A stretch of DNA of 38,759 bases from assembly GCA_020052955.1 (NCBI GenBank), contig JAGVOB010000087.1:1-38759 (forward strand). Direction: 5' to 3'. The position numbers and the translations under genes were made by a program. The notes below the pieces were generated by a model. The model was given only the letters and a program-made list of their open reading frames with translations, searched no databases and was not told the origin of the DNA. This DNA is from Candidatus Omnitrophota bacterium (GTDB lineage: Bacteria > Omnitrophota > Gorgyraeia > VGKN01). Position 1 is the first letter of the stretch. Every line of letters begins with the position of its first letter. Below are positions 12,927-30,100 of the stretch, one piece after another.

Positions 12927-14183
12927 TTATAGGGCTCTAGTTACAACTTCAATAAGTTCATCTAAGGGCGGTGGAGAATTATTCGTAATGGTAATAACAA
13001 GCTGATTATAGGCTTGTTTATCTTCCCCTATGCCTTTAATGGGTTTAATTTCTGCATTTACTTTGTCTCCATATTGAACAATAACTTTTTTAATTTTTCT
13101 ATTTTCCATATTGGCTTCGAATAATGACAATATCTTTGATATATCCGAAAGTATTATTCTATCTCCTTGCTTCTTGGTTTCAAAACCTTTTACGCTGATA
13201 GAGTTTTTGGCAATATCAATCATAAATAACTGGACCTCAAAACCTGTAGCCTCAATAGATAGTTTTCCTATTCCTAAACTCTCCAATGCCGTCTTTATTT
13301 CTTCTATTCTTTCAGGAGCATATGCATATGCTCCACCTACTATATAAATTTGCATCTGAGAAATCTCATCAACAGTCAAATTATATTTATCCATCAATAA
13401 TCCTTTTATCTCAGCCAGGGAAGCAGGTATATCGCACATAACACTAAAATGGTCCACAAATCCTACATTCTTACCTCCTCTGGTTTTAACAATCCCTGCC
13501 ATTCCAACACATATTGTTAATCCGTATGTGCCTATTGCCTCTTTATCGCCTACAATATAGAAACTCTCTGCCACAAGTAAGCCATCTAAATCCTCTTTGG
13601 GAAATTCTTTTTGTATCTTAAAAATACTATAACGCTCTTCAATAATCACTCTGTGTTTAACTTGAGACAGACCATTATGGTTTTGTCCGCACCAAAATCC
13701 CCCGATGTTCCTTGGGCTATTTTCAACGGGTGATGATTTTTCAGTTTTTCCCCATATTTTTAGCGGCGGGCTTAAACAATCAGGAGCCTCGTGTCTTAAA
13801 GTAAACTTCAGCTGGCGAGAGTCTGCTTTAGCTTTAAGGGGGATTGGCTTGCCCCGTAACACAAACTCATCTGCCTGCCCTTGCCTATGCTGTAGGCTTG
13901 TATATTCTATTAGATGATTACCATCTAACGAGGAAGTAGCCTTTGTGGTATGGGGCTGGCGAGTAGCTATTATTTTATTAGTTTTAAATTGTGAGGTTAA
14001 AGAAAAATCGGGAGCCTTAGGGATAGAAGCGGCTATCAGCTGGCGAGTAGCCACCTCATCTTTCCCAATAAGGCTCCTGATAGAGTAATCTGGAGCAATG
14101 GAAGAGAGAATAAAACACTCTAAGACTGATATGGCTATCAGCTTAATAAATAGCCTTATGCGATAGGAATTATTATTTACCAT
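12927..14183 (-). CDS. Leader-bearing CheD-like deamidase candidate
   Basis: 418 aa. Residues 1-35 carry the shared leader (LIAISVLECFILSSIAPDY). About residues 36-150 hold the palindrome-coded peptide in one full copy (IRSLIGKDEVATRQL...KAPD), one degenerate copy (IIATRQPH) and one with a lost outer stem (KAKADSRQLK...EAPDCLSPPL). From about residue 165 the protein resembles CheD glutamine deamidases: a strand with Cys (YGLTICVGMAGIV, Cys near 225), then GFVDHF with His about 20 residues later, helices, and a VGGAYAYAPE segment like the GGA of CheD. CheD deamidates chemoreceptors, but no receptor or other che gene is here. Similarity is by eye and remote. The gene follows the HD/APH gene by 22 bp. 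Confidence 0.55.
   Translation of the reverse strand: MVNNNSYRIRLFIKLIAISVLECFILSSIAPDYSIRSLIGKDEVATRQLIAASIPKAPDFSLTSQFKTNKIIATRQPHTTKATSSLDGNHLIEYTSLQHRQGQADEFVLRGKPIPLKAKADSRQLKFTLRHEAPDCLSPPLKIWGKTEKSSPVENSPRNIGGFWCGQNHNGLSQVKHRVIIEERYSIFKIQKEFPKEDLDGLLVAESFYIVGDKEAIGTYGLTICVGMAGIVKTRGGKNVGFVDHFSVMCDIPASLAEIKGLLMDKYNLTVDEISQMQIYIVGGAYAYAPERIEEIKTALESLGIGKLSIEATGFEVQLFMIDIAKNSISVKGFETKKQGDRIILSDISKILSLFEANMENRKIKKVIVQYGDKVNAEIKPIKGIGEDKQAYNQLVITITNNSPPPLDELIEVVTRAL
13782..13829 (-). repeat. In-frame palindromic element, copy A1 (outer stem lost)
   Basis: The inner arms aaagtaaact (13798-13807) and agtctgcttt (13820-13829) flank the conserved loop (coding CTCGCCAGCTGA) with two mismatches. 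The left outer arm aggagcctc (13782-13790) is kept, but its partner is not found. It encodes KADSRQLKFTLRHEAP. Confidence 0.6.
13950..13970 (-). repeat. In-frame palindromic element, degenerate copy A3
   Basis: The loop fragment gctggcgag (13955-13963) is followed by tagct; the coding peptide is IIATRQPH. Only a weak stem remains. It is called because of its similarity to A2, just to its right. Confidence 0.35.
14010..14078 (-). repeat. In-frame palindromic element, copy A2 (covarying stems)
   Basis: Outer arms ggagcctt (14011-14018) and aaggctcc (14070-14077); inner arms ggcta (14031-14035) and tagcc (14048-14052). The loop is the same CTCGCCAGCTGA as in other copies, although both stems differ in sequence, pairwise compensated. 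Span 69 bp, 23 codons. Confidence 0.7.
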
Positions 14184-14205: not shown

Positions 14206-16134
14206 CTACAACTTTGTCGGCTCTTCGCCCCTTAAAAACATAAACTCATCCTTAATTGTTTGCAAATTATCTGTTAACCTTTTTATCCCATCCATTCCGA
14301 TATTCTCTTTGACCGGTTTGCCTTTTATGCTGTTGGCAAAAAGCACAATGCGGTATAATATCTGTGCGGTAAAGAAAGTGGGTAAAGCATCTATCTCTTC
14401 TTGAGTAAACAATGGTTGAGTAGTTTCTTGGTAACCTTCTAAAAACGTTGCCAAAACCTCTTGTAGCTTACCAATATGATAACTTTCTCCTCGACGTCCT
14501 GTCTGAACCAAAGTTGCAAATAAATCTTCGAACCTATAACCTATACGCGCATTATCCCAGTCAAAGATTGCTATGATTTCCTCGCCGGTTTCATTAAATA
14601 TAATATTCCCAAAATTTAAATCGCTGGGAATAAGTTGCATATATGAAGAAAGTAATTTAAACCGTTCAGGCGTCCAGTATGAATTAACCTCGGAGAGTGC
14701 AGTATCTATTATGGACATCTCCTCTCTGGTAAGGCGGCTCTCCAGCTCTGCGTGTAATACAGCGCCTGATGTAACAACGGTCTTGATAGCACGCTCTAAG
14801 GAATAATGTTCGGGATGGCGTTTATATGTACTACTATAAGTGCATGCTAATTTATGAATCTTACCTAACATACGGCCGACGGCTTTTAAGGTGGCAGGAG
14901 AGACGTCCTTTCTTGAAATCTCTCTGCCTTCCACCCAGGGCTCAACTGAATAAAACCTTTCTTCTCCTGTATCTTCTGAACTAAACGCAGTGAAGAAATC
15001 ATCCGCAATCTTACCCTCGCTTCCCTGTTTGCGAATAAGGGGTATCGGTATTCCATTCTCTTTAAGATATCTGACATAATCCATTATAAACCGCGCATCC
15101 TCTGTGCTTTCGACTTTTAAGCGTTTTATTGCAAATTTTCCTTTGGGCGTCTCGATAACCGGGAAAGGTTCGCTTTCAATACCGGCTCCGCCATGGACCA
15201 ATTGAACGTTTAAAATCTCCCCTAACCCAAACTCATTAACCATATGCTGGAGAAATCGGGACGGTTTTATTTTCACCACTCTTGATGCGGCTAAATCTGA
15301 AGGCGCTATTTTGTCCTGAGTAAAAAAGTGATTATATAAATCTGTTAAAATTCTAATAATTTGATTTATTTCCTGCTCACTTAGACCATAATCTTGTTTT
15401 AAATCATCCCGTTTTTCTTCAATAAATCCGGTTACTACCGCCAAATCCTTACTTGCTCCTCTTATAATATTTTTTGCTCCCTCAGTTAAAAAAAGTTTCT
15501 CTTCCCTTCTCTGAAATAAAACTTTATAAAAAAGGTCATTTACTCCGTCGGATTCGCTATAATGACGGTTTTCTTCTATGACGGTTATCCTGTGAGCTAA
15601 GGTTTGTTCAGGATGACGCAGAGTACCATTTGGGCGCCTTGTCTCGTCAGGCTCAAAGAACCTATTCGCAGAAAGCGGCCTTGTTTTGTCATATCCGCTG
15701 TCTTCTATTGACCATCCTAATTTACTCTTATATATCTGCTCAGGATTAAATATTACGGATAGCATATCAGCATCATGTAAAATTCTAGCTTCAACGTATT
15801 TAAGATGTTCTTCTCGCGGCCCTTTGCCTTTTGTCTTTTTATGTCCTTTTGCTATTTGGCCTACTTTTTGAATGGATAACTCATTATACTTACCTTCTCT
15901 TCTTAAAATCGCCTCAATCCATATCGCTGAGTTTTCTTCATGGTTATTACGGCTAATAATACAGCTTAAATCATGCGCTAAAGCAGCAATAATTAAATCT
16001 GCAAGATTAATATCCCCCAATGAAATCTCGGGGTCATTTTCGATAATTTCCAAATATCGTTTTATGACATCTAAGCTGTGCGGTAAGGCATGCGCCGGCA
16101 CCCTGTCTGCATAAAAGCGTTTAAACAACTCCAA
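14206..16134 (-). CDS. HD-domain plus aminoglycoside-phosphotransferase-like kinase
   Basis: 642 aa from a TTG start. Residues ~10-190 look like an HD phosphohydrolase: HALPHSLDVIKRYLE, then AALAHDLS and ILHDADML supply the metal-binding His/Asp set. From about residue 300 an APH/choline-kinase-type fold follows: FAIKRL (ATP lysine), the catalytic loop PSDLNFGNIIF, and IFDWDNARIG with the Mg-binding Asp. The substrate is unknown. The frame is identical to that of the isochorismatase fragment upstream, with only a TAG (16141-16143) and two codons between them. The start has little Shine-Dalgarno. Reinitiation at TTG, or a former fusion split by the TAG, both fit. This ORF has no leader of its own, unlike its neighbours. 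Confidence 0.7.
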   Translation of the reverse strand: MELFKRFYADRVPAHALPHSLDVIKRYLEIIENDPEISLGDINLADLIIAALAHDLSCIISRNNHEENSAIWIEAILRREGKYNELSIQKVGQIAKGHKKTKGKGPREEHLKYVEARILHDADMLSVIFNPEQIYKSKLGWSIEDSGYDKTRPLSANRFFEPDETRRPNGTLRHPEQTLAHRITVIEENRHYSESDGVNDLFYKVLFQRREEKLFLTEGAKNIIRGASKDLAVVTGFIEEKRDDLKQDYGLSEQEINQIIRILTDLYNHFFTQDKIAPSDLAASRVVKIKPSRFLQHMVNEFGLGEILNVQLVHGGAGIESEPFPVIETPKGKFAIKRLKVESTEDARFIMDYVRYLKENGIPIPLIRKQGSEGKIADDFFTAFSSEDTGEERFYSVEPWVEGREISRKDVSPATLKAVGRMLGKIHKLACTYSSTYKRHPEHYSLERAIKTVVTSGAVLHAELESRLTREEMSIIDTALSEVNSYWTPERFKLLSSYMQLIPSDLNFGNIIFNETGEEIIAIFDWDNARIGYRFEDLFATLVQTGRRGESYHIGKLQEVLATFLEGYQETTQPLFTQEEIDALPTFFTAQILYRIVLFANSIKGKPVKENIGMDGIKRLTDNLQTIKDEFMFLRGEEPTKL

Positions 16135-16140
16135 GGGAAC

Positions 16141-17052
16141 CTAGCGATAAATTACTTTGATAGAATCCCATACTAAATTTTGAAATTCTTCTTTGGTGAG
16201 TGGCTTTTTGTCTAATCTATCGTATGCTTCAACTGCTTGTCCAATTAACTCCTCTATTAAAGGAGTTGACTCTCCTAAAGAAGCAATGAATTCTTCAAAA
16301 GAAAGAGGTTGCGGAGATTGATTTAAGAGCAGTTCGGAGAAAAGCTGGTCTTCGGTTACTCCGTCCTTGCCAATAATTCTTGTATAAATTGCCTGCATTT
16401 CTTTATCGCTAAGCTCTTCTGTGCATAAACGCCTGATATCCCCTAAAACAGACAGCCAAGTAATAACCGTTTCCGAATCAGTTATTTCCATTGATTTATT
16501 TTTAGATAATTGCCTTAGAGTTTCGGTCTTACTTCTTATACCGGAAGCCGTGGTTGTACAATCACCGGGAATAAATACATTAAAATCTCCAGCGGCATCT
16601 TCAGCGCTAAGTCCGATACAGTAGTCTGTTTCTACGCCGACCATAATCAAATTTACTATACCTCTTTCTTTCAGATAGTCTCCAAGCGCGGGATTTCTTA
16701 ATGCGCTATATTGTCGTTTACTAAATAAAGATAAATGCCTGTTTTGCTGTAATTCTTTAAGTGGGGCTATTAATTCCTGGCCCCATGAACCATGTCTGCA
16801 GGGAAAATAGTCAGGATGGTCTCTAAATAATTCACAGTCTGTTGCACCATCGGAAGGGCCATAATCGGCCTGAATAAAAATTACTTCTATACCATTTTCT
16901 ATGGCCGTATTAATTACTTCCATTACATGAGGCAGGGTATTTTTTACGTGCCTGCGAGGTTTAAAATTTTGCACAGAAGAAGGGACTCTCAAACTATCCC
17001 GCTGGTGATTTTTTAACTTACTATGCCTATCATAATAGCCCCCATAGAACAA
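16141..17052 (-). CDS. Isochorismatase-like cysteine hydrolase, main part (frame-shifted from its N-terminus)
   Basis: 303 aa as an open frame from a TTG, but the true N-terminus is in the ORF at 17013-17441. Seen: the conserved lysine in LFSKRQYSALR and the nucleophile in GVETDYCIGLSAEDA, followed by PGDCTTTASG. The aspartate of the triad is in the other frame (VIDMQNDFC), so this part alone cannot be active. Such enzymes cleave amides or ethers (nicotinamidase and isochorismatase types); the substrate is not readable. A helical extension of about 100 residues follows the hydrolase, up to a TAG stop that is in frame with the HD/APH gene. Confidence 0.7.
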   Translation of the reverse strand: MFYGGYYDRHSKLKNHQRDSLRVPSSVQNFKPRRHVKNTLPHVMEVINTAIENGIEVIFIQADYGPSDGATDCELFRDHPDYFPCRHGSWGQELIAPLKELQQNRHLSLFSKRQYSALRNPALGDYLKERGIVNLIMVGVETDYCIGLSAEDAAGDFNVFIPGDCTTTASGIRSKTETLRQLSKNKSMEITDSETVITWLSVLGDIRRLCTEELSDKEMQAIYTRIIGKDGVTEDQLFSELLLNQSPQPLSFEEFIASLGESTPLIEELIGQAVEAYDRLDKKPLTKEEFQNLVWDSIKVIYR

Positions 17053-17441
17053 AAATCATTTTGCATATCAATTACTATGACGACACTTTTGCCGGTATAA
17101 ATATTTAGACTTCTATTTTTTGAATTAGGGGTATTCCCTGTGCGACCTTCAGCAACACGTTTCTTAGACCCTGAGGAGGATGGTAAAACTTCCCCAATCA
17201 CATCTTCAGCTTTATCTTTACCGAACTCGCTTGTAGCAAGCGGCGGTGCTAAACAATCAGGAGCCTCATGGCTTAAAGCAGACTTCAGCTGGCGAGAGTC
17301 TGCTTTTAGTGGGTGCGATGACCCGGCGAGGCTCCTAATTTGGTAGTCTGGCGCAATATTTGAGACAATAAAACACTCTACGGCTAACAGAGATATTAGC
17401 CGGATAATGCTATTAGTGTTATGAAATTTAAGGCTTTTCAT
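17013..17441 (-). CDS. Leader plus N-terminal end of isochorismatase-like hydrolase (5' fragment)
   Basis: 142 aa. The ATG at 17441 opens the shared leader (RLISLLAVECFIVSNIAPDY), then the palindrome-coded peptide (IRSLAG..PLKADSRQLKS..EAPDCLAPPL), a linker, and the first strand of an isochorismatase fold, VVIVIDMQNDFC. The frame stops soon after a run of five G (17039-17043). One extra G would fuse it to the ORF at 16141-17052, reading QNDFCSMGGYYDRH. A -1 shift, a real mutation or a base-calling error would explain this. GGGGG resembles a slippery run but does not make a canonical X XXY YYZ heptamer. It lies 65 bp after the methyltransferase gene. Confidence 0.7.
   Translation of the reverse strand: MKSLKFHNTNSIIRLISLLAVECFIVSNIAPDYQIRSLAGSSHPLKADSRQLKSALSHEAPDCLAPPLATSEFGKDKAEDVIGEVLPSSSGSKKRVAEGRTGNTPNSKNRSLNIYTGKSVVIVIDMQNDFCSMGAIMIGIVS
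17039..17043 (-). other. G5 run at the isochorismatase frameshift
   Basis: Five C on the plus strand (five G on the coding strand). The upstream frame has the VIDMQNDFC strand; the frame one base back carries the rest of the hydrolase. Adding one G restores a single reading frame across the site. Confidence 0.7.
17259..17336 (-). repeat. In-frame palindromic element, copy B (most perfect)
   Basis: Outer arms aggagcctc (17259-17267) and gaggctcct (17328-17336); inner arms aaagcagact (17275-17284) and agtctgcttt (17297-17306), both perfect. Span 78 bp, 26 codons, coding RSLAG...KADSRQLKSA...EAP. Confidence 0.85.
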
Positions 17442-17506: not shown

Positions 17507-18898
17507 TCAGAGTTTGGCTTCCGATGCAACAGTTTCGACCGGGACAGGTGTGGCAGCTGGTTTATGAATTACGAAAAAGGCTGATGAAACACCGTGTAGA
17601 ACGCTTGGCCTTACTCCCCAATATTGTGCCTCAACTACTTCGAAACCGACTTCATGGAAGAACCTTTTCCACTCTCCCATTGTGTAATAACGGTAGGCCA
17701 TTGGCATTTCATATAAACCGCTAAAATAAATATTCCAATACCAGTCATTCCAGACTATCCATTGATATTTCTGTTCATCGGTTAAGTCGAGAAAATGCGA
17801 TGTGAGTTCTTCATCCATGGTTTCAAACGGGCAGCCAAAAGTAATTCCATCATTATCCGGATAACTATCTTCATAGATAACAACTTGGCCTCCGGAAGCC
17901 ATAACATCATACAGGTCGTTTAAGAATAAATGGATTTTTTCAATTGCATCTGGGTCGTGTGGACTAAAATATTCAGGATATATATGATGGATAACGCTGG
18001 CTATACGCGCAGAGGTAACAGTTCCACGGCCAATCTCATCCACCGCCAACCGATGAGTTTCTTGATGAATAAAGCGTATTCGGGAATCATCCTCATGGTA
18101 ATCGGTGACATCTGTACCTACGCGCTCTATATGACGCTTGGGGTGCCTATCAGCGAGTTCTTTGAGAAATCTGTTATACCCACACCCAACATCCAAGATT
18201 TTTGGACCCAAGTAAAACTGGTCAACATATTCAGCTTCCAGCCTTGTAGCTTTTCTAAAATAGCGCTCATAATGCTCCTTTTCAGCTTGTCGAAACCGAC
18301 CTTGAGGATTAGCAAAGTCAAAGACATATTCGTTCAAGTATCTTGCAGCTGAAGTTGAATCTCCCTCAAAGCGTTCTATCTCATTTAGTATGTTATCAAC
18401 CAATACTTCAATATCCTTATCTTGAAAAAAGTCAGGATAACGCGAATATTGTTTAATTAATAAATCGCGTATAAATTTGCGTAATACTGGGTCGCTTAAG
18501 GCTGCTAAAGGATTTGGCGCGGTGACATCAGTTTGGCCGGTTGTTTGGATTCCTTCAACTACACGTTTGGCAGCCCTCCCCTTACTCAACTCACCTATTG
18601 CAAGTGGCGGGGCTAAAAAGATAAAACTAGGAGCCTCAGCTCTTAAAGCAGACTTCAGCTGGCGAGAGTCTGTTTTAAGTGGGCACAGTGACCCGGCGAG
18701 GCTCCTAATATGGAAGTCCGTTGTATCATCTGTGATATCACATTCGGACGACATCCGCCGAAGTTCATCAAGACTTATAGTGGACGAAGGCCGATAGCAG
18801 TCGGAAGCTAAATTTGAGACAACAAAGCACTCTATGGCTAACAGGGCTATTAGCCTTACTGCAAGTGGCTTTACGTTATAAAAGTGTTTGTTAAACAA
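17507..18898 (-). CDS. Leader-bearing SAM-dependent methyltransferase
   Basis: 463 aa. The start is TTG at 18898, one base after the stop of the 2714-aa gene. It aligns with that gene's start (MFNKHFYN versus MYNKHSYN), which supports the TTG. The leader RLIALLAIECFVVSNLASD is followed by an extra stretch of about 25 residues not seen in its sisters, then the palindrome-coded IRSLAG..PLKTDSRQLKSA..EAP. From about residue 220 a class I methyltransferase is visible: motif I ILDVGCGYNRF, an acidic end of strand 2 (VGTDVTDY), and later ASGGQVVIYEDSY. The acceptor is unknown. It is probably translated by coupling. Confidence 0.75.
   Translation of the reverse strand: MFNKHFYNVKPLAVRLIALLAIECFVVSNLASDCYRPSSTISLDELRRMSSECDITDDTTDFHIRSLAGSLCPLKTDSRQLKSALRAEAPSFIFLAPPLAIGELSKGRAAKRVVEGIQTTGQTDVTAPNPLAALSDPVLRKFIRDLLIKQYSRYPDFFQDKDIEVLVDNILNEIERFEGDSTSAARYLNEYVFDFANPQGRFRQAEKEHYERYFRKATRLEAEYVDQFYLGPKILDVGCGYNRFLKELADRHPKRHIERVGTDVTDYHEDDSRIRFIHQETHRLAVDEIGRGTVTSARIASVIHHIYPEYFSPHDPDAIEKIHLFLNDLYDVMASGGQVVIYEDSYPDNDGITFGCPFETMDEELTSHFLDLTDEQKYQWIVWNDWYWNIYFSGLYEMPMAYRYYTMGEWKRFFHEVGFEVVEAQYWGVRPSVLHGVSSAFFVIHKPAATPVPVETVASEAKL
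18629..18706 (-). repeat. In-frame palindromic element, copy C
   Basis: Outer arms 18629-18637 and 18698-18706; inner arms aaagcagact (18645-18654) and agtctgtttt (18667-18676), with one G-T pair. Span 78 bp. Confidence 0.8.
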
Positions 18899-18899
18899 A

Positions 18900-21800
18900 T
18901 TATATACCCTTTCTGATTTTATCCTCTGGCAGCGGGAACTTTATAGTAATCTCAACATTTTCATCTATATTCTCTGTGGTGATTTTGCCATCTACTGCCT
19001 CAATTAAATCATGTATAAGGGGACCTTGATACCAGGGTTCATCTCTGGTCCTTTTAGGCTTAAACATCGTTTCTAAATCAACTTGCCCTTTATACGTAAT
19101 TTTAAATACAGTACAGTCATCTTCTCCTTTTACCTCAACATATAAATCTTCTCCCTTGGTTTTACAGCGGAACATATTGAGCATAATATTGTCTAAGAAA
19201 AAGTCGTTTAACCAGAGTCTTGTGCCGGGCTCAACCATAAAATGAAACTTTTCATTTCCGTGCATCCGCGAGTCTTCTGCAGGATATAAAGAAATATCTA
19301 AAAGCTCCTTTTCATAAAATTTTTGGGCATATAGCAGTTTTAGGACAATCCGGCTCTTTGAGACAATTTCTTTAACTTTATCTAGATCTTCATTATCCCT
19401 ATCTTCCAAAGGAACACCTTCTAGCGCTTTTTTTAGCCTTTCTTCCGCGTTTATCAATGCCTTTACCTGGTCAGAGATTGCACCAACCCAACCATCCGTT
19501 CTTTCTATCCATAAAATCGCGTTCTCATCATCTTCAAAACCTGACAGTTGATTTTCAGAGGAGGTATAGGTATGTATCATACCGTACACCTCATCAGGTA
19601 ACTCCTCCCTGAAAGACCTCTCAATATAATCTTGTGTCCCTTGTGAAATCTTACCGCGACTGCACAGAAAGTACCAAGAACTACCTATCAATCCTACGTC
19701 ACCTCCGAGTTTATGAATTGCATAACCGACTTGGCGTAATACCCTTTGATATTTTTCCCTTAACTGCGGCGTGATTCCCTCTTTTTCTTTTAGGACGTTT
19801 TCTTTGGAGCGAAGTAAAATCTGAGCCCTTCCTCCTGCGCCATACTCAAGCACAACGGCCTGCCTTGGTGGTAAAAATGAAAATATGATATCTTCTTTTT
19901 TCTCTACTTCTTCAAGTGCAAGCAAGGAAAGTAAGAGGCCTTCTATCTCTCCTTGTGTTGTGCCCTTCTCAAAAATAATATCACGGAATACCTGATAATC
20001 TCCTGTGCATATATTCTGGAAATAGACAGGGAGCATTTCCTCTATCTTATACCTCATTTGCTCATGGCCACGTGCCAAAAAGGACTCGTATGATATCGTT
20101 TCTCTTGTCTGTGTTATTTCAGAAATTTTAATACTATATGCATAGATTTCCTTCACAATCTTCTCCGCACGTTCCTCTGCGTCTGGAATGCCGCGCTTGG
20201 AAAATATCTCGTAAACTTGCTGCACAAGTTTTTCTGGAATCTGCAGTTTCTTCTGCGCAATGTTCTTCCAATCAAGCGGAAGTTTAATTGAAAAGTGTGC
20301 ACCCTTGCCTTCATTACTTGCAGCGATTGTTCCATCAAACATCTCAAGAAGCTGTCTTGCCCAGAAAAGCCCGTAGCCGCTATGTTGAGGTTTTGTGCTG
20401 AATTTTCTCTGGAATATATTGGGCAACATCTTTCTATCTATACCGCCTGCCTCATCCCTTATTGAAATTTCTAATATATTTTCTTCTTTGTTAACCTTAA
20501 AGTAAACCTTGCCTTTAAACTCTGTTCCATATTTCAGCTGGTATTGGTCAAATGCATTATCCAGAATATATGAGACCACAAAGCTAAGACCATATGGCAA
20601 TTCTAGACCTTTAAGATTATCTCTATCAAAATCGGTTTCAATACTAACTCTATCTGCATAATCAGCGAGAAATACCTCTACTGTATTACGCAAAAATTCA
20701 TCAAAGGTAACAGATGTCTCTATGTTGCCAACGGCAGACGACAACCGTAAAAGTCTTAACATATAATTTGCTGCAACCCCCATTGTTAGGGAAAGACTGT
20801 CTAACTGCTTGATGAAGGGCTCATATTTTCTTTTCTCTGATAGACTGAGGGATTCTATTTCTTCTCGTATCTGTGGGATCAGATAGCTTGCAACGTAGAA
20901 GATACGTCCTTTATAATTGTGAGTGCGCGCATTAAAAGGAAGGTTCCTGTCAACATTTCCAAAATTAAAGAATGCACTCATCCTTGAAAGATGTTCTTCT
21001 ATTTTCTTTACTTTCTCTTTGTCCTTCAGTTGCGGAGAGAATTCTGTCAACGAACCTTTTAACTGCCTGAGACCTATCATAAGTCTTGCTTCAAAATCAT
21101 TGACTCCACCGTTTAAGAAACTGATATCGGCGGGCTTTGACATCTCTTTCTTGGGAAGGGCATCAACGATAACCTGGCTAATTTGATAAGGGCTTTGGAG
21201 TCTTGCATAGATCATATTAAGCAGGGTTATGGGAAAATTCTCATCGGCATTTTTTTCAATATAATCAATTCCGTATTTTGTCTTAAATTCAGGGTCAATA
21301 TCCTTTGCAGATTTGTTAAAGACAGGTATCTGGTCTTTGGAGATAATGCTTCCGGAGATAAAGAAGAAGAACCCCTTAAAGTTGAGCGTCTCTTTTTCAT
21401 AACCAGAATCTGGATGTAGCCTTAACATATTCAGGAGATCTCCGCCATCAGAACGCCTTATTCCTGTCTGTTCTGTTCCAAATTCATAATCGGCAAGTAT
21501 TATTATTTTTTCATCGGGAACGCCTTTGGCTCGTAATTCCTTTACCAGCGCTACCACATCTTCAACTGTTCCTAATTTGTGGGTGTTTTCAAAAAATCCC
21601 TTCACTATCGCGCCAAAGGCATTTCTTATGAACGGCTTATCATCCGCAATGATTATATGGCAATCCTTAAAGTGTTCTATTACGCCTGGCGAGACTTTGA
21701 TATCCTCTGGTTTTATCTTAACTGCCTCAAGCGGTAATTCTTCCTCTAAAATTCTCGTATCTATAACCTCCTGAGCTTTTATCTCTTCGCCTCTTGCAAA

Positions 21801-24800
21801 GGCTAAAATCCGACCTTTTATAATCTCAAACGCTCCTGCATCATGTTTTAATTGAACAGAAATCTGGCCCTCTAAATACATATCCCACAGGTCAGGATAA
21901 AGTCTGAGTTGTTTTATAATCGGTGTATCATCAGCAGAATATATGACAACCTTTCCCTTAAAATTATATTTCCTGAATGCCTGTTTACAAAGCTGCACTC
22001 CATTCACGGCATCCTGATCTGGCCTTTCAGGGTCAGAAGTAAAGGTATATAAATCTAGAGGGTCAAGTCTAAAGTCAAGTACTAAAAAGTTAATAGCTGG
22101 ATTTTCAGCCAACATCTTAATACCCTCATCCATGTTATTTGCGGTTTCTATTGACGAGATTTCGGGAGAGGCTAACATTTTTGTCGTTGCCTCAAGCATA
22201 TTACGATCATCATCCACAACAAGGACTTTCACCTCAACCATTTCCTTATCTTTGGCAGGTTTTAAAATCTCTTCAAGTTTTGGTTCTATTTCTGCCCAGT
22301 CATCCCTTGAAGGCCTGTATCGGCGCTCGGGGAAGCCTGTTTTAAGAAGCTCCAATACCTCATCGGCATGTGTTTTTGCAGCTTGGGTAAGTTGGTATGT
22401 TGCCCCTTTAGTTTTTGCTCGGCCATCTCTGTGTACCAAACCTCTTACTATAAGAGCTCCTAGGTCTGTTTCAATGGTGCTTGGGGCACGTTCTTCTCCT
22501 AGATTTTCTATTATTTGCTCTATAGTAAGCGGCTCCGTAGCTTGTGCGAGAACTTTAAATACTGCATACGGCGAAGCGGCTGGTGGTGTGATTTTACTCT
22601 CAGGGGTTTCAGGGGAAGGTCGCTTAAACCCTATATCGGTCAAGAGATTCTGCACCGCCTCCGGCCAGGATGTACCGCTTTTGCGGTAACTAGCAACTAA
22701 TCCCCGCAATGTCATATTGTTTAATTCCGGAACTCTTTCATAAAAGTCCGTGAAGGTAAGGTATAAGGGATGCTTGCCTCTAACAGCGGCTAACATCTCT
22801 ACCATTTTTCTCTTAGCCCCCGTAGAGACATCCTGCCAGCGATTAACCCTGTGGGTTCTATAGTACTCCGTCTCTTCTTCAACCGAAATCTCTTTAAAGC
22901 CGAGTTTTTCCTTTATTTTAGCGGCTATATTTTCTGCTTCCTCCTCTGCCCCTCCTTCACGGATATAAGTTTGAACCAATGCAGATAACGACTGCCCGCC
23001 AAATACATCATATTTATGGCGCGTTAAATCTTGATAGGTAAGTTTTATAGGTGGTTTGCCTAATTCTTCCGCTGCCAATTCCAAGAACCGCGCCCTGACT
23101 GCATCTGGTACTTTCTCCCAGCGTATATTAGTCGTCTTAAAAAGCTTAAGCCATTCTTCAAAAGGGACAGACTTTCTTTCCTGGGCAAGGTTTTTAACCT
23201 TATCTGCAGTTTTTTCTAATCCCTGGGCGATAATTATTATCATTACCTCATCAGGAAAAACCCACCTTCCATAACTGTCGAGTAATTCTTTTTGAAGCGT
23301 TAATGCCTTTTCAAGCCAATGTTCGGCGTTTTCCAACCCCTGTCGGATAATCACATCTATAATATCGTCTTTGGTGAGGCGCAAAGAGTATTTGGCCAAC
23401 AATTGCCCTGTCTTCTGCCGAATCTGTTCAAGCTGGCCAATAAAATCAGGGTAGTTATTGATAATTAATACAGTGTCTCCTGGCGAAAACCCATAATCAT
23501 CTAATATCCTGTTGAATGTATCCGGTAAAACTAAACGCATTATTAGAAAATTAATCCATTTCTCAGGATAACCTATTTGTCTATAATAAACTATTCCCTG
23601 CGAAACCTTCCCCATCAAGCCATTTATTTTAAATTCCCTTAGTTCATCAATCGCGTCCCGCTCGTCTAAAGTTAGCACACCCTCTTTAATCAGCCAGTTA
23701 AATGACTCTTCTCTGGATCTTACTAATGTATTACTAACTATCTCGGCGTAAGGCTCTTCTAACCCGGCATCAATCAGATTTTTATAAAGCCGTTCATAAT
23801 ATGGCTCTTCGGCCATGGTAAGCGGCCCTCCCTTTTTACCCCAACCGGGCAATATACGCTCCCTGCCAAGTGCCAGCTCAGGGCTGTCATGTCTTCTTTT
23901 TCTTGATTGGGCTTGTAGTTCGGCGGGTTGGGCTGACACAGTGGCGGATTCGGCTAGCGCTAAAATCTCTTTAAGCCTTAGCTCAATAGTAACCCACTCT
24001 TCATTTCTGGGACTGTATCCGAACTCTTCTACTAGGTTATGAAGAAGTTGAAGTATTTTATCAGCATTCTCTTTTGCTGCTGTGGTTAGCTCATAGGTTG
24101 TGGTAGCTGCATCCTTTGCAAGACCTTCTCTATGAATTAGATTTCTTACAACTAGAGAACTGATGTCTCTTTCGATTGTGCTTGGGGCACGTTTTTCTTC
24201 TAATCTGGCTATAATTTCCTCAATGGTGAGCGGCACGCTGGTTCCTTTAAGGACCCTAAATACCGCATATGGGGAGCCGGAGGGTAGTCCCTTAGTATCG
24301 GCTACAGAATAGAGGTCATTTGGCGTATATAGCCGAACACCGTGAACAATTAACCAGTCTCCCGAACCTAGATTGTTCATGTACTCAGCTAATGCAGAAA
24401 CATAATCTGGAGTAGCAATATTCACTTCCCAAGACTGCCAATCAGTTATGGCCCCAATTTCAATCTCTCTATAAATAGTCAAGGCTTCCGGAGCCCTGTT
24501 AGGAACAACAATAATCTCTACGCCAGACGGACATGCATTTCTTACAATCTGCTCCAGGGCTTGAGGAACTAATATTGCTTGAATCGCTTCAGGCGGAATA
24601 TGGGAAAATCCCATCTCATGGGCCTGGGTTCCATCAAAATGAACACGATTTAAATATTCTTGGTCAGCAGGACTTAGTTTGTCAGGATCAGCTAAGATAA
24701 CAATGCTAGAGCGAGCTCTTTCCTCAAGCAGTTTTTCTATATCTGGTTTAGTTATATTTTGAAAATGTTCAGAATCGCCGGTTCGTTCCATTATTACCTG

Positions 24801-27044
24801 CAGAATTCCTTTAACCGGATGGTAAACTGCATCCTCGCTAACTGACTGATTGTGTCCTTGATGGCCCGAAAGGACCATATTGCAAGAACTAACCCCAAGC
24901 AAAACATCTCTACTAGAATCAAAATCAGCTGATTCAAGAACATCCCTCCCGCGCTTTTTCTGTTCATCAGGAGAAAGGATTCCTTCTTTAAATATACTAG
25001 CAAGAGCTTTCTTAGATTCTGCTAGTGCGGTATCCTCAGGCTGTATGTTCAATGAATAGAAGATTATTTCAGTCTTCGACGCTTTCAAATACTCATCAAG
25101 AACATTGGGATTCTTAAGGTAATACTGGGCAAATATGGTGCATCTTTCGCCCTCAATAGGCTCATCAACTACTTCAAAAATATGCCAATTAGGGTTTTCC
25201 GCATCACCGATATATTTTCTGATATTCTCTCTTTTTTGAACATCTTCAATATATATCGGAATCTTTCCCGATTTTCTCTCTTTGGATATTACCGCCTGGG
25301 TTATAAGTTTTGACATATCATGGGTGGGATTTGGAATCAAAGCAAAACCACATCTCAAAAGTTCCTTTACTATCAATGGATTCCTAACATATGTGTATAA
25401 GGAATCGGATCTTCGCCCTGTAAATACACCCTCCCTTAAACCTTTTAATACTACCTCAAGGAAAGCCGATGAATAGCCGCTGCTCCTGAAGGCTGACTCT
25501 ACATAAACATAATTCATCAAAAATCTATTAGGCAGTATCTGCACATAACCTACTCGTTCATGAGATTCGTTATAAAAAAGTATGTCAAAATCGACGCTAT
25601 TCTTCTCGTTTCTTTTGTACATATAAAATTTTTCTCCATATTCAGTAATTAAAAATCCTATTTCTTCCTCAGCTTGTGATGCGGCGGATTCGGCTGGCTG
25701 CCCTTTGGTTTTGCTCGTGATAAGCGCGGTGGCGATGCCGGCTTTTGATGCAGCGGTTATTGCATTTTTAAGCCGCTCACTTGCTGCAGCTTCATCTACA
25801 ATAAGACGCGCCTTAGTTTGCTTTATATAACCTGCTGGATTATCAGGGGATAATTCCCCAAGCGCTACTACGTCAACTGATGGAATCTTGTCTTCACCGT
25901 TTGCTATAACAACATTTGTTTCTGTTTCCTGTAGTATTTCATACATACCTGTGGTATTTGCATAAGCCCTCGGCATTCTGCCTTCTCTAAGGGCGCTTTC
26001 TATTCCATCGATACCTAATTGTTCAATCTCCTGCTCAGTAAGGCCTACCTGTTTTTGTATCCCTATGTTGTCTCTGTTTGAATAAATTGTCCTAGGAATT
26101 AATTCAACCCTTCTTGTGCACATTTCGGGTGTAGACCCTCTTTCATCAAATGCCAGATGCACCTCTTCATAACTACCATCAGGCATAAGGCGCGCTTTGC
26201 CAAGGCCGTATAAACCCGCATGAGCCTTATGCGGGCCGTTAGGCCTTGCCCTTTTAATCTCTCTATCAAACACTTCTCTATACCTGTCTACTGGCAGGCT
26301 AGATATCCCTTTTTCTTCAAATTCCTTTATTCTTTGCCTGTATTGCTCTACATTAGCGGCAGGCCATTCTGATTCAGGGTCAACGAGGCAATAAACTCCA
26401 GGTAATGGTTTATTTAATTTTTTAAGAGGCTCTATAAGATTCCTACAGATATATTCGTGATAGTCAAAACTGGTTCCACCATACTCATCAAGCATAAAAA
26501 TAATAACCCTTGACCAATCTATATTATCCATTTGAACAAGCAGCTCATATACACCCGCCGCGCCCGTTCTCTCATCTTTGAGCGGTGTATTTCCTGTGAG
26601 CATTCTTATAACTGCAATTTCATCATTCGCATGAGCCTTTAATATCTCATCATGAATAATCCCTACCGCAGTTTGTGCCATATGCCCCTTATCCCTGGTG
26701 ATTGCAACCTCAAAACCAGGAAACTTGTCAGGGAACAACTTTATAAATCTTGGAGATTTTTCAAGAGCATCTTTACTCACTTCTTTTAGATGCCTTATAG
26801 CGGATTTATCCCTTCTTAGTTTACCTGTTGTAAGTGGCGGTGCTAAAAAGATAGAACTAGGAGCCTCTGGCTTAAAAACAGACTTCAGCTGGCGAGAGTC
26901 TGCTTTAAGGGGGGATGGATTCCCGGCGAGGCTCCTAATATAGTAGTCGGGAGCTAAATTTGACATAATAAAACACTCCATGACTAATATCGCTATTAGC
27001 CTTACTGCAAGTGGATTTAAGTTGTAAGAGTGTTTGTTATACAT
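18900..27044 (-). CDS. Giant leader-bearing multidomain sensor/regulator (NagB-like, GNAT, wHTH, receivers, histidine-kinase-like ATPase)
   Basis: 2714 aa. Order: leader (1-35) and palindrome peptide (to ~75); NagB/gluconolactonase-like domain (~85-400; FMLDEYGG near 181, VHLAFDERGS near 290, where the usual Asp two before the His is Glu); GNAT-like acetyltransferase (~455-580, AFRSSGYSSAFLE); unassigned ~600-900; first winged helix (~925-1020, SPYAVFRVL); a helical middle; second winged helix (~1490-1580, SPYAVFKVL), clearly a duplicate; receiver 1 (VLVVDDD near 1603, LVLDFR as phosphosite); receiver 2 (IIIADDK near 1795); an HATPase domain (~2100-2240: DNAFDQY, DEAGGID, SGYGLFWARQ); and a degenerate second HATPase-like end (~2600-2710: DNIMLN). 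No clear kinase H-box is seen. It probably integrates signals; output is unknown. Confidence 0.8.
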   Translation of the reverse strand: MYNKHSYNLNPLAVRLIAILVMECFIMSNLAPDYYIRSLAGNPSPLKADSRQLKSVFKPEAPSSIFLAPPLTTGKLRRDKSAIRHLKEVSKDALEKSPRFIKLFPDKFPGFEVAITRDKGHMAQTAVGIIHDEILKAHANDEIAVIRMLTGNTPLKDERTGAAGVYELLVQMDNIDWSRVIIFMLDEYGGTSFDYHEYICRNLIEPLKKLNKPLPGVYCLVDPESEWPAANVEQYRQRIKEFEEKGISSLPVDRYREVFDREIKRARPNGPHKAHAGLYGLGKARLMPDGSYEEVHLAFDERGSTPEMCTRRVELIPRTIYSNRDNIGIQKQVGLTEQEIEQLGIDGIESALREGRMPRAYANTTGMYEILQETETNVVIANGEDKIPSVDVVALGELSPDNPAGYIKQTKARLIVDEAAASERLKNAITAASKAGIATALITSKTKGQPAESAASQAEEEIGFLITEYGEKFYMYKRNEKNSVDFDILFYNESHERVGYVQILPNRFLMNYVYVESAFRSSGYSSAFLEVVLKGLREGVFTGRRSDSLYTYVRNPLIVKELLRCGFALIPNPTHDMSKLITQAVISKERKSGKIPIYIEDVQKRENIRKYIGDAENPNWHIFEVVDEPIEGERCTIFAQYYLKNPNVLDEYLKASKTEIIFYSLNIQPEDTALAESKKALASIFKEGILSPDEQKKRGRDVLESADFDSSRDVLLGVSSCNMVLSGHQGHNQSVSEDAVYHPVKGILQVIMERTGDSEHFQNITKPDIEKLLEERARSSIVILADPDKLSPADQEYLNRVHFDGTQAHEMGFSHIPPEAIQAILVPQALEQIVRNACPSGVEIIVVPNRAPEALTIYREIEIGAITDWQSWEVNIATPDYVSALAEYMNNLGSGDWLIVHGVRLYTPNDLYSVADTKGLPSGSPYAVFRVLKGTSVPLTIEEIIARLEEKRAPSTIERDISSLVVRNLIHREGLAKDAATTTYELTTAAKENADKILQLLHNLVEEFGYSPRNEEWVTIELRLKEILALAESATVSAQPAELQAQSRKRRHDSPELALGRERILPGWGKKGGPLTMAEEPYYERLYKNLIDAGLEEPYAEIVSNTLVRSREESFNWLIKEGVLTLDERDAIDELREFKINGLMGKVSQGIVYYRQIGYPEKWINFLIMRLVLPDTFNRILDDYGFSPGDTVLIINNYPDFIGQLEQIRQKTGQLLAKYSLRLTKDDIIDVIIRQGLENAEHWLEKALTLQKELLDSYGRWVFPDEVMIIIIAQGLEKTADKVKNLAQERKSVPFEEWLKLFKTTNIRWEKVPDAVRARFLELAAEELGKPPIKLTYQDLTRHKYDVFGGQSLSALVQTYIREGGAEEEAENIAAKIKEKLGFKEISVEEETEYYRTHRVNRWQDVSTGAKRKMVEMLAAVRGKHPLYLTFTDFYERVPELNNMTLRGLVASYRKSGTSWPEAVQNLLTDIGFKRPSPETPESKITPPAASPYAVFKVLAQATEPLTIEQIIENLGEERAPSTIETDLGALIVRGLVHRDGRAKTKGATYQLTQAAKTHADEVLELLKTGFPERRYRPSRDDWAEIEPKLEEILKPAKDKEMVEVKVLVVDDDRNMLEATTKMLASPEISSIETANNMDEGIKMLAENPAINFLVLDFRLDPLDLYTFTSDPERPDQDAVNGVQLCKQAFRKYNFKGKVVIYSADDTPIIKQLRLYPDLWDMYLEGQISVQLKHDAGAFEIIKGRILAFARGEEIKAQEVIDTRILEEELPLEAVKIKPEDIKVSPGVIEHFKDCHIIIADDKPFIRNAFGAIVKGFFENTHKLGTVEDVVALVKELRAKGVPDEKIIILADYEFGTEQTGIRRSDGGDLLNMLRLHPDSGYEKETLNFKGFFFFISGSIISKDQIPVFNKSAKDIDPEFKTKYGIDYIEKNADENFPITLLNMIYARLQSPYQISQVIVDALPKKEMSKPADISFLNGGVNDFEARLMIGLRQLKGSLTEFSPQLKDKEKVKKIEEHLSRMSAFFNFGNVDRNLPFNARTHNYKGRIFYVASYLIPQIREEIESLSLSEKRKYEPFIKQLDSLSLTMGVAANYMLRLLRLSSAVGNIETSVTFDEFLRNTVEVFLADYADRVSIETDFDRDNLKGLELPYGLSFVVSYILDNAFDQYQLKYGTEFKGKVYFKVNKEENILEISIRDEAGGIDRKMLPNIFQRKFSTKPQHSGYGLFWARQLLEMFDGTIAASNEGKGAHFSIKLPLDWKNIAQKKLQIPEKLVQQVYEIFSKRGIPDAEERAEKIVKEIYAYSIKISEITQTRETISYESFLARGHEQMRYKIEEMLPVYFQNICTGDYQVFRDIIFEKGTTQGEIEGLLLSLLALEEVEKKEDIIFSFLPPRQAVVLEYGAGGRAQILLRSKENVLKEKEGITPQLREKYQRVLRQVGYAIHKLGGDVGLIGSSWYFLCSRGKISQGTQDYIERSFREELPDEVYGMIHTYTSSENQLSGFEDDENAILWIERTDGWVGAISDQVKALINAEERLKKALEGVPLEDRDNEDLDKVKEIVSKSRIVLKLLYAQKFYEKELLDISLYPAEDSRMHGNEKFHFMVEPGTRLWLNDFFLDNIMLNMFRCKTKGEDLYVEVKGEDDCTVFKITYKGQVDLETMFKPKRTRDEPWYQGPLIHDLIEAVDGKITTENIDENVEITIKFPLPEDKIRKGI
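26859..26936 (-). repeat. In-frame palindromic element, copy D
   Basis: Outer arms 26859-26867 and 26928-26936; inner arms aaaacagact (26875-26884) and agtctgcttt (26897-26906). Span 78 bp, placed just after the leader of the 2714-aa protein. Confidence 0.85.
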
Positions 27045-27132
27045 TTCTATCCAACTTCCTTAAGTGTTTAACAAAACCTTTAGTAACTAAGGACAAAAAA
27101 TCATCATTGTCTATGCCTAATAAGTTAAACAT
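27037..27132 (-). CDS. Small ORF, 31 aa, coupled to both neighbours
   Basis: Its ATG (27132-27130) overlaps the TAA of the 1567-aa gene in the form TAATG. Its own TAA (27039-27037) overlaps the start of the 2714-aa gene as ATGTATAA. A GGGAG box lies upstream within the previous gene. The peptide starts MFNLLGIDNDDFLSLV and ends in a basic tail (KHLRKLD). Double coupling of this kind is typical of operons and makes a real peptide plausible. The AAGGA box for the next gene would lie inside it, so it may also act as a translation-coupling leader. No family is recognised. Confidence 0.5.
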   Translation of the reverse strand: MFNLLGIDNDDFLSLVTKGFVKHLRKLDRNV

Positions 27133-30100
27133 TATAGCTTCTCCCTTATTTTATCTGCTACTTCAAGAGTTGTTGCATAGTTCGGTATTTGTCCACCTAT
27201 AACAGGGCCTATTAGATTTAAAATAAAGGTATCTTTATTCTCCACCTTTAACGTACCGTTTAACGCCATTAAATAAGAAATACCCTTTAACAGTGAAGGG
27301 ATTTGGTCTAAAGCTATCCCATGGTTTAATAAGATTCCATATTCTACTTCTTCAGTACTACCGAGTTTATTTTGAATATCGATATAATCATCTGAATTAG
27401 AGATTAAGGCGCTAAGTTTATTAGTATCAATACTACGCGCTTCTTTTCCTGCGCGTATATCTATTTCGCCTAATAGGGTCTCCGGTGCACCTATAGCGCG
27501 GAGGCTTTCTATTATTTCTTGTTTGGTTACTGTTTCTGTTTGTGAAAATACTACAAGCTTATTACCTAGCGCTCTTGCAAGCGTAAGGGCTTCAATAACA
27601 TCAAACATAGCATACGTAGAACCTCCCTTATAGGAAAGGCTAAGCGTATTAAATGAAATCGCTATGGTCTGGCCTGTTTCTTTTATTTCTGTTTTCTCTG
27701 CATTACCTACTGCTTTTATTAGATTGCTAAGGTCGGGGATTTCTTCTGCAACACCTTTCGCGATAGGCCCTACCATAACAAGTGAGGCTAACGGCGATGT
27801 AGAATAGCCTTTAATTTCTTTGCTTACAATTTTGATAACTACAACTCCCTTAATTAAGGAGACCTTTTCTAGTTTTATATTCTGTTTTGAGGCGCGTTCT
27901 TCAAATTCACCCCATAATCTATTTGCATCCTCATCAGTAGCGCCAACTCGCGATCTGGCATAAATAAACCCTCCTTCCTTCATTATCCGCAATATCTCAT
28001 CGATAGCGATAGAACGTTTATCACTCAGGATAAAATTGTGGACATCGCGGTAAATAGCTTTTGTGAAGCTATTATCTCCAAACATACTCATATCTTCCGC
28101 GCCTCCTGCAAAGAACTGCAAATTTGGCGCTCTAGATGTTTCTGCATTCTCAAGCTCTATTTCAGATATCAAGCTATCCATATCTACAGTCTCATCACCA
28201 TTAATTGCTGCTTTTACCCTGGGATGTTTTGAATACCTTGCAATCCTTTCTGCCAAGGAAATATTACCTGCATTATCAATACCTGTAATATTGGCGACTC
28301 TATCAGCTATACCAATAGAAATAAATCCAGTTCCGCATCCTATATCAAGCACATCATCATGTTTAGATAATCCAAGCAGCTCAACAATTTCCTCAACAGA
28401 ACCATATTTATAATCTTGGGTAACAATCAATGGTGCTTCTCTGTCTATGGCTGATGTGGCTTGTGCGGTGACAGCGGCTGTTGGCATGTTCTTAGCAGAG
28501 ACAATCTTTTCGTATATTCTTGAAAGGTCTTTCTGCGGGTTAGCAAGATAATCCTTAGGCGCTTCGGCAGGCTTTGAAATAGCAGCCTCAAGCTCAAATG
28601 TTCTTTTTGCCTTTATATCTCTTAATATTGTTGCTATAGTCTTGTTAAATACAGATAAATCGTAATTTACAGTTGCCGGAATTATTCGCCTAGTAAGCTC
28701 TTCAAATGTGAAATCTCTTCCTTCAAAACCACTCCCCATTAGAACGGAGATATAGAGGACCTTAAGCGTTAAACTATAATCTTCTACCTCTTGCGGCATA
28801 GCCTCAAGTAACGCCTTTAATGCATTTATTCTTTTAAGCTCTTCAAATTTTGCCATAGCAGGCTTCTGTTGCTTGTTTTCCTCATTATAGAATACAATCC
28901 TGTGGCCATCCTCGGTAACCATAACATCTTCATCCCTCATAAGCCTTGCCTCATAAAACTCTCTTGATGCTTCAGGATCTATTTCATCTTCCCGATCTTC
29001 AACAGGGATAGGGCTTAACCTATCGATAACCTCATATGTCATACCTATTTCCTGCTGAATAGGAACTACCGTTGCCTGTAGAGACGCTGCCTTTGCCTGA
29101 TAAAGTGCGAGATTTGACCCAAAGAGAGTATATTTCTGAAGAGTCCTTTCTATTATATTAAGTAAAGTTGGTAGTTGAGTTTTTAAATATTCATCCAGTG
29201 CTTCTGGTTTAATTTGGCTATCCCGTCTGAGTTTAACCCAGGCGTAAAATCTATCGGGAGACTGCCCGGGAGGCGCGCGCGCTATCTCAATCTCAAAATC
29301 ACTTCCAAATAACTTCTCTACCTCCATATTTATCAAATACCCGAAAATCCTTATTGCCCAGTCCGCATCGAACATATGGCCGGGCAACTCCTCATTAAGC
29401 ATACCAAACTTATAGAAGCCTCTCAGGTAGGCGCCTTTATGAATATTCCCCAACTTTTCTTCTCTTTGCACCGCTTCAGCGAATGTCCCGGGCTTATCTA
29501 TCAAAGCACGAAAATCCCCCCACTGGATATCAAGCGCAATTAATCTGCCGGCTGAATCACGCTCCATCTTTCTGTCGTAATCTATTTTCCCTCGCAGTGC
29601 CTGATAATTTAAGACGCAGGGGACTACTGTATCTCTGTCGCCAAAGGGTAAGCTGTATGAGTTTTGCTTAATATCCTGTTCTATCGTATCCTGGTCAGCC
29701 GAATTGGTAAATATGGCGGATAAACTACGAAGACCCGGCATAATATTCCCCCACTCATGAAACCAACTATTAACGTCCAAGCCTTCAAAATAGGAAAAAA
29801 CATGATTCCTGTCTCCCTTTTTCCTTTCATACAGCTGTGGGGCTTGGCTTATCTTCTTTGCCTCACTTAGGGCGATATTTGCTCCAGCCATAAAGGTATC
29901 GGCATTCAAACTCCTTCCGGTTTGTTCTATCGCGCTACGCATCTTCCCGTCCACATAAAGCGCTCCCATAGAGCCTGTAAGCACTGCCACTTCCGATAAC
30001 TCCTCAGAAATAACGCTAAATACACCTTCCCTATATCCAAGCTGCTTAAATGCTTCATCAAGTTCTTCTAACCTGTCCTTAATATATAAAACGGATATTC

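Follow-up and report, generated by a model that had tools for sequence, protein, structure and literature searches.

A 2,714-residue mosaic protein from an Omnitrophota genome, its export-type leader, and a class-wide pool of recurring modules

The window analyzed here, 38,759 nucleotides, is the whole of contig JAGVOB010000087.1 (contig C12 of its genome) from Candidatus Omnitrophota assembly GCA_020052955.1, a metagenome-assembled genome (MAG) of 2.38 Mb that is 95% complete and divided into 232 contigs. From 31835 down to 12927, genes lying on one strand and separated by short gaps form an operon of genes that mostly start with the same leader sequence. Its largest member is an open reading frame (ORF) encoding a protein of 2,714 amino acids (aa), which we named P0001. 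A first-pass annotation, made from the sequence alone, had described this protein as a NagB-like enzyme joined to a GNAT domain, two winged helix-turn-helix (wHTH) repeats, two receivers, and two HATPase-like ends. The ORF is borne out and lies on the minus strand, which the annotation had not specified; the proposed domain order is largely right. From the N-terminus, we recognize a leader, a NagB-like module, a GNAT domain, an unnamed module, a wHTH, a two-copy repeat, a second wHTH, two receivers, a candidate H-box, a HATPase, and a degenerate HATPase (table 1). No curated family covers the whole chain: searches of Pfam, NCBIfam, and PADLOC gave matches to individual domains or none at all, in line with the earlier statement that no standard family has this order. 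A defence-system reading was rejected, as PADLOC gave no match to the protein.

The first-pass annotation had raised the possibility that the domains are separate genes joined by mis-assembly. The MAG is in many contigs and the leader DNA repeats of the window are 65–93% identical, which speaks for an assembly artefact. However, the long repeats are confined to the 5' ends of genes, and the interior of the 2,714-aa ORF is repeat-free. The plus strand of this region is full of stops and the minus strand is a single open frame, along which the GC content by codon position is coding-like, without a break at module borders. As the same modules are also joined in assemblies from other genera, the joined domains are not mis-assembled separate genes, and we regard an artefact as very improbable.

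Relatives were searched for in genomes of the same class, a set that includes none of the same order. The class-wide searches sampled 177–292 genomes, E-values are per genome, and ORF lengths in MAGs may be shortened by contig ends. A pattern scan of genome contigs with the whole protein found no relatives. Relatives of its modules were found and belong to Candidatus Omnitrophica.

The leader of P0001 is also found at the head of four further genes in the window and of one gene on contig C41. Many giant ORFs of the class begin with a signal peptide of this type, whose approximate consensus is [KR]xIxLxVVxxFxxxDIxWA. A profile (A8) built from 12 leaders of several genomes has matches in 146 of 177 genomes (E up to 1). 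For the best 140 listed matches outside the seed (E ~6e-5 or lower), the median ORF length is 1,500 aa and 71% of the ORFs reach at least 1,000 aa. We read 20 matches, hand-picked with a preference for longer ORFs rather than drawn at random. All 20 are N-terminal, 3–113 residues past a stop, in ORFs of 679 to 45,379 aa, and 19 close with an aromatic-Ala pair (AWA, VWA, SWA, or AFA), which would make a good signal peptidase I site. It is unusual for a signal peptide to be this conserved from one genus to another. The first-pass annotation had overlooked both this leader and the palindromic element behind it (see below), which together are a larger result than the domain order it reported. By eye, the giant ORFs L025, L053, L059, L060, L084, and L085 share a module right after the signal (..IQDxHxNxxAQ..EGAxGxxDTS..FPD..LYGVED..).

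The modules behind the leader also recur. A profile of the GNAT domain and its tail has matches in 8 of 292 class genomes, and eight of these nine matches are inside ORFs of 1,099–19,367 aa. The wHTH profile has matches in nine of the 292, all inside ORFs of 1,336–15,338 aa. The NagB family occurs as ordinary genes of 230–340 aa and also at more than 20 places inside ORFs longer than 1,300 aa. The rarer modules of P0001 are thus found across the class almost only in other ORFs of 1,100–19,000 aa, in differing orders. One of them, a 2,181-aa ORF of genome G187, combines a signal sequence, NagB, wHTH, PPDK, and wHTH; judging from its sequence, it is an independent parallel to the NagB...wHTH...wHTH combination with another filling. 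Other giant ORFs of this kind carry metallophosphatase, radical SAM, ARMT1-like, NUDIX, adenylate kinase, methyltransferase, and PPDK domains. Sequence comparison establishes a mosaic architecture, a shared module pool, and a conserved N-terminal leader; by the same evidence, the architecture of P0001 is one draw from this pool and not a one-off. In some giant ORFs, the motif SSP(V/I), often directly ahead of a new module, is strongly enriched (observed versus expected: 28 versus 1.3 in L070, 13 versus 0.9 in L072, 9 versus 0.5 in L120, and 7 versus 0.6 in L023). Is it a linker or a cleavage site? This SSP punctuation, strong in other giants, is absent from the module borders of P0001.

Table 1. 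Positions of P0001, its modules, the palindromic elements, and the operon genes in the window
Feature	Residues of P0001	Position	Strand	Basis or remark
Whole ORF, P0001, 2,714 aa		18900..27044	-	ATG start, read 27044→18900, no internal stops
Leader	1-35	26940..27044	-	export-signal-like; residues 12-30 are the sole strongly hydrophobic segment of the protein
Palindromic element coding RSLAGNPSPLKADSRQLKSVFKPEAP, 2,714-aa gene		26859..26936	-	in frame; pattern and covariance model
NagB/glucosamine-6-phosphate-isomerase-like	~108-420	25785..26723	-	profile matches, alignment
GNAT-like domain with conserved IPIYI..VDEPIEGE tail	~459-650	25095..25670	-	profile, structure match
Unnamed module	~712-915	24300..24911	-	relative inside a 3,364-aa ORF
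wHTH 1 with C-terminal extension	~923-1034	23943..24278	-	duplication, profile
Unassigned stretch between wHTH 1 and repeat	~1080-1290	23175..23807	-	no family match
Two-copy W..(A)K..M..LT..DF repeat	~1297-1480	22605..23156	-	sequence comparison
wHTH 2	~1490-1596	22257..22577	-	duplication, profile
Receiver 1	~1604-1756	21777..22235	-	Pfam; DDD 1611-1613, D1657, S1703, K1733
Receiver 2	~1793-1955	21180..21668	-	homologues, key residues; DD 1801-1802, D1852, S1897, K1931
Candidate DHp/H-box region	~2030-2110	20715..20957	-	by eye; His2042 in THNYKGRI
HATPase_c	~2146-2260	20265..20609	-	Pfam, motifs; N (ILDNAFDQ), G1 (RDEAGGI), F, and G2 (GYGL) boxes
Degenerate second HATPase-like end	~2600-2708	18921..19247	-	sequence
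Upstream gene, 1,567 aa: leader, element, degenerate GGDEF-like, methyltransferase		27132..31835	-	
Palindromic element in 27132 gene		31587..31670	-	pattern and covariance model
Gene, 463 aa: leader, element, methyltransferase-like		17507..18898	-	
Palindromic element in 17507 gene		18629..18706	-	pattern and covariance model
Frameshift-split gene: leader and element (17013-17441), isochorismatase-like body (16141-17052)		16141..17441	-	
Palindromic element in 17013 gene		17259..17336	-	pattern and covariance model
Gene, 642 aa: HD domain and APH-type kinase		14206..16134	-	no leader
Gene, 418 aa: leader, two palindromic elements, weak XopAK-like domain		12927..14183	-	
Palindromic element in 12927 gene		14010..14078	-	pattern and covariance model
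Second, weaker palindromic element in 12927 gene		13779..13860	-	covariance model

Two glucosamine-6-phosphate deaminase models of NCBIfam match the NagB-like head, one at E 2.1e-10 and the other at E 1.5e-9, which upholds the original assignment, though the profile matches stay under the curated cut-offs (40.6 bits versus 326 for the better NCBIfam model, 16.6 bits versus 27 for Pfam). Aligned with Omnitrophota homologues, it keeps D186 (MLDEY), H296, and E301, and the Asp of the DGH motif is replaced by E294. This is the change of a catalytic Asp to Glu pointed out earlier. It needs a correction: the position is Asn in two stand-alone Omnitrophota NagB homologues, and because it varies there as well, the substitution by itself is weak evidence for lost function. 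The GNAT core (~459–590, with the tail extending to ~650) is matched weakly by Pfam (E 0.038), and a profile of four relatives of this part finds acetyltransferases in PDB. An AlphaFold model of residues 440–925 computed from a 4-row alignment, our single usable structure model and usable for the GNAT part only, has a predicted local distance difference test (pLDDT) score of mostly ~60–88 over this core. In a Foldseek comparison with PDB, its highest-ranking matches are GNAT enzymes (probability ~1.0, best E 1e-3), so the model confirms the GNAT fold. The acetyl-CoA motif (Q/R)xxGx(G/A) appears as R520-S-S-G523-Y-S525, with Ser at the last position.

In the same model, pLDDT falls below 50 beyond residue ~665, including the unnamed module. 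This region (~600–900) had been left unassigned; the module, for which we claim no fold, has one clear relative (26% identity, pairwise E 4e-10), inside a 3,364-aa ORF of another genome. An ADP-ribosyltransferase-like reading made by eye was dropped, the motif search having given only one look-alike. Weak matches of the second copy to wHTH families support the fold type of the two wHTHs, which are 53% identical (E 3e-34). As each copy is closer to the other than to any other sequence found, the pair is, on this comparison, an internal duplication; the duplication was rightly seen in the first-pass annotation, but the copies are not nearly the same in sequence, as it had stated. Repeats resembling W..(A)K..M..LT..DF occur in ORFs of 9,919 and 2,641 aa from two other genomes. 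The 2,641-aa ORF (L027), read by eye, starts with a ParA-like ATPase followed by HEAT-like and W..K..LT..DF repeats, and has no signal sequence.

The C-terminal half resembles a phosphorelay. Receiver 1 is close to the Pfam cut-off (E 1.4e-7; 29.6–32.1 versus 30.2 bits). Receiver 2 has no match in Pfam but does have homologues in two ORFs of another genus. The acidic pair, the phosphorylatable Asp, the Ser, and the Lys are present in both receivers, those of receiver 2 being common to a homologue in another genus. Across receiver 2 and the HATPase, P0001 can be aligned with an ORF of 2,655 aa from another genus (E 2e-21), and another relative of receiver 2 is found in a 553-aa ORF starting with a signal-like sequence. 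The HATPase match is above its cut-off (E 1e-15, 58.5 bits versus 26.4). Residues 2600–2708 show weak similarity to it (E 0.003) with eroded boxes; an AlphaFold model of residues 2260–2714 made without alignment has a pLDDT of 37, and the degenerate end is therefore assigned from sequence alone. Two receivers and a kinase-type tail whose last domain is degenerate thus hold as first described. The H-box that was to be looked for between receiver 2 and the HATPase has a candidate in H2042. Profile scans found no HisKA family match in P0001. By eye, THNYKGRI resembles LYHDFNN of the relative, but the aligner left the two unpaired and the score does not exceed that of shuffled sequences (44 versus 33 +/- 5, maximum 58).

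Directly behind the leader, the five leader genes of the window hold an element of 69–84 nucleotides. It is a nested palindrome with outer arms AGGAGCCTC/GAGGCTCCT and inner arms AAGCAGACT/AGTCTGCTT, translated in frame as RSLAG...PLKADSRQLKS...EAP. Among six aligned copies, 96% of the 132 possible pair cells are formed. Eight pairs have changed on both sides, a number reached by none of 500 shuffles, and sliding the partner by one to three columns destroys the pairing. The number from the shuffles cannot be read as a probability, given that the copies are related to one another, but the compensatory changes themselves are direct. Eight copies in this genome, all behind the leader and some of them in tandem, are recovered by a covariance model, which yields no convincing match in 116 other genomes. 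Rfam contains no known RNA family that matches. The distance between element and signal varies between genes, so that the element must move or convert independently of the signal. It may act as RNA, act as DNA, or be only a relic. A 107-aa ORF on contig C41 (L028:3735-4058) consists of little beyond the leader and two palindromic elements.

The methyltransferase part of the 1,567-aa upstream protein matches PADLOC mad2 (E 8e-12), probably only a general methyltransferase similarity. In the 418-aa protein, one domain weakly resembles the XopAK family of type III effectors (E 1.1e-4; 21.7 bits, the cut-off being 150). The frameshift in the isochorismatase-like gene is either an assembly error or real decay. 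It counts for a neutral accretion, in which giant ORFs are in-frame fusions of duplicated decaying pieces without unified function, as do the degenerate C-terminal HATPase, the altered NagB site, and a second, truncated NagB piece present in the 2,181-aa ORF of G187. The 8 kb free of stops, the intact HATPase and receiver residues, and the reuse of one leader and one combination of modules by distant genera all argue against it, and we consider it improbable. The flanks of the operon are housekeeping-like (holA and lptE by Pfam; carB-, secA-, prfB-, uvrC-, and murJ-like genes by eye). This setting is not that expected of a chromosomally lodged phage or conjugative element, whose polyvalent proteins also carry many enzymatic domains per chain (PMC5512222). 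The GNAT and unnamed parts have no relatives in the plasmid, phage, and IMG/VR collections, and on this ground we rejected the mobile-element reading, which is scarcely credible here.

We therefore lean, with modest confidence, toward P0001 being one of a class-wide group of giant mosaic Omnitrophota proteins, in which modules from a common pool (wHTH, GNAT, NagB, receiver/HATPase, PPDK, methyltransferases, and others) are shuffled behind a stereotyped Sec-type signal that leads them to the inner membrane. P0001 has the two features by which we propose to recognize the group, the stereotyped N-terminal leader and the shared modules, minus the '-WA' ending. The leader would send the chain into or across the inner membrane. 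With APDY in place of '-WA', P0001 may stay anchored by residues 12–30 unless it is cut elsewhere. As the ATP-binding and receiver residues are intact, the C-terminal receiver-receiver-HATPase block is probably active where ATP is available. For the NagB and GNAT parts, the substrates would be amino sugars and acyl acceptors.

Several points weigh against this interpretation. The cytoplasm is the usual place of histidine kinase, GNAT, and NagB activities. Export, cleavage, and destination are read from sequence features only, and no delivery system was identified. The length figures given above for leader-bearing ORFs stand without a length-matched set of ordinary Sec signals; the set used for comparison consists of 3-kb stretches, which have no room for long ORFs, and as it is no fair control we draw nothing from it. 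In the genome of P0001, APDY replaces the usual '-WA' motif, and since this class-typical site is lost, cleavage at APDY is doubtful; the RSLAG start of the palindromic element might supply a new signal peptidase site (SLA, cut before the G). Autophosphorylation via H2042 is likewise doubtful, because the next residue is Asn, not Asp or Glu, and its alignment is not significant. The central puzzle is thus an export-type leader on cytoplasmic-type enzymes, and its main rival solution is an inside-facing anchor. P0001 would then be a cytoplasmic membrane-tethered hub, in which a NagB-like amino-sugar sensor and the GNAT domain feed the receiver-receiver-kinase block and the wHTHs bind DNA or connect. 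All identifiable modules are of cytoplasmic types with intact cofactor sites, and the missing cleavage site suits an anchor. However, the positive n-region predicts an N-in/C-out orientation for a single segment, no second hydrophobic segment would return the chain, and most relatives of the leader elsewhere in the class have a good signal peptidase site at their end. We regard such a hub as somewhat unlikely.

The periplasm contains neither ATP nor acetyl-CoA. Real export of kinase-, acetyltransferase-, and PPDK-type modules by the leader would raise the question of their source of ATP and CoA and would point to a partner cell. For this reason, a role in the cytoplasm of another cell is the least forced reading, one we put forward as speculative and tentative. 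It also fits the host-dependent, predatory or parasitic, lifestyle proposed for Omnitrophota alongside their giant ORFs (PMC10066038). An extension of this idea, which we consider quite unlikely, is a phylum-scale secreted arsenal with one dedicated signal peptide, whose shuffled metabolic, deamidase-like, methyltransferase, and phosphorelay modules would work in partner or prey cells; in some lineages, the palindromes behind the signal would then offer a handle for recombination or regulation.

P0001 can be compared with several known systems. Like hybrid sensor histidine kinases and two-component systems, it has receivers with conserved Asp and Lys and a HATPase with N, G1, F, and G2 boxes. 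It differs in that its receivers precede the kinase, HisKA is unmatched, the candidate H-box reads HN and not HE or HD, and NagB, GNAT, and a leader are fused to the block. The likeness to NagB (PF01182) extends along the whole fold through the landmarks LDEY, H.AF.E.GS, R.ELIP.T, and GE.K, but the match is below curated cut-offs, with Glu for the DGH Asp, insertions, and a position inside a 2,714-aa chain. Polyvalent proteins (PMC5512222) similarly join many catalytic domains in one polypeptide; P0001 is instead chromosomal, has housekeeping neighbours and an export-type leader, and lacks mobile-element relatives in the collections searched. The palindromic element recalls PARCELs (PMC2996958) and Rickettsia palindromic elements: these too are palindromes translated in frame into ~25 residues, close to the N-termini of proteins directed to membranes, and at times they come in tandem. 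The element described here is unrelated in sequence and forms one nested double palindrome, present in eight copies in one genome, all behind the leader.

The closest comparison is with the giant ORFs of Omnitrophota themselves (Seymour et al. 2023, PMC10066038), which are described there as having few annotated domains and obscure functions. P0001 shares with them the phylum, great length, few annotated domains, membrane or extracellular features, and poor conservation as wholes. That paper counts ORFs over 20 kb and treats adhesion domains and multiple transmembrane helices, whereas P0001 spans 8.1 kb, contains a single hydrophobic segment, and is built from modules of cytoplasmic type (enzymes, wHTHs, and two-component domains). 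It is under the >20 kb threshold, yet longer ORFs have modules and the leader type in common with it. Neither a common signal sequence nor a module pool is mentioned in the passages of that paper that were consulted. Giant ORFs of Omnitrophota were already known; a recognizable leader common to them and a recurring module pool make these giants one definable group that can be counted, sorted, and tested.
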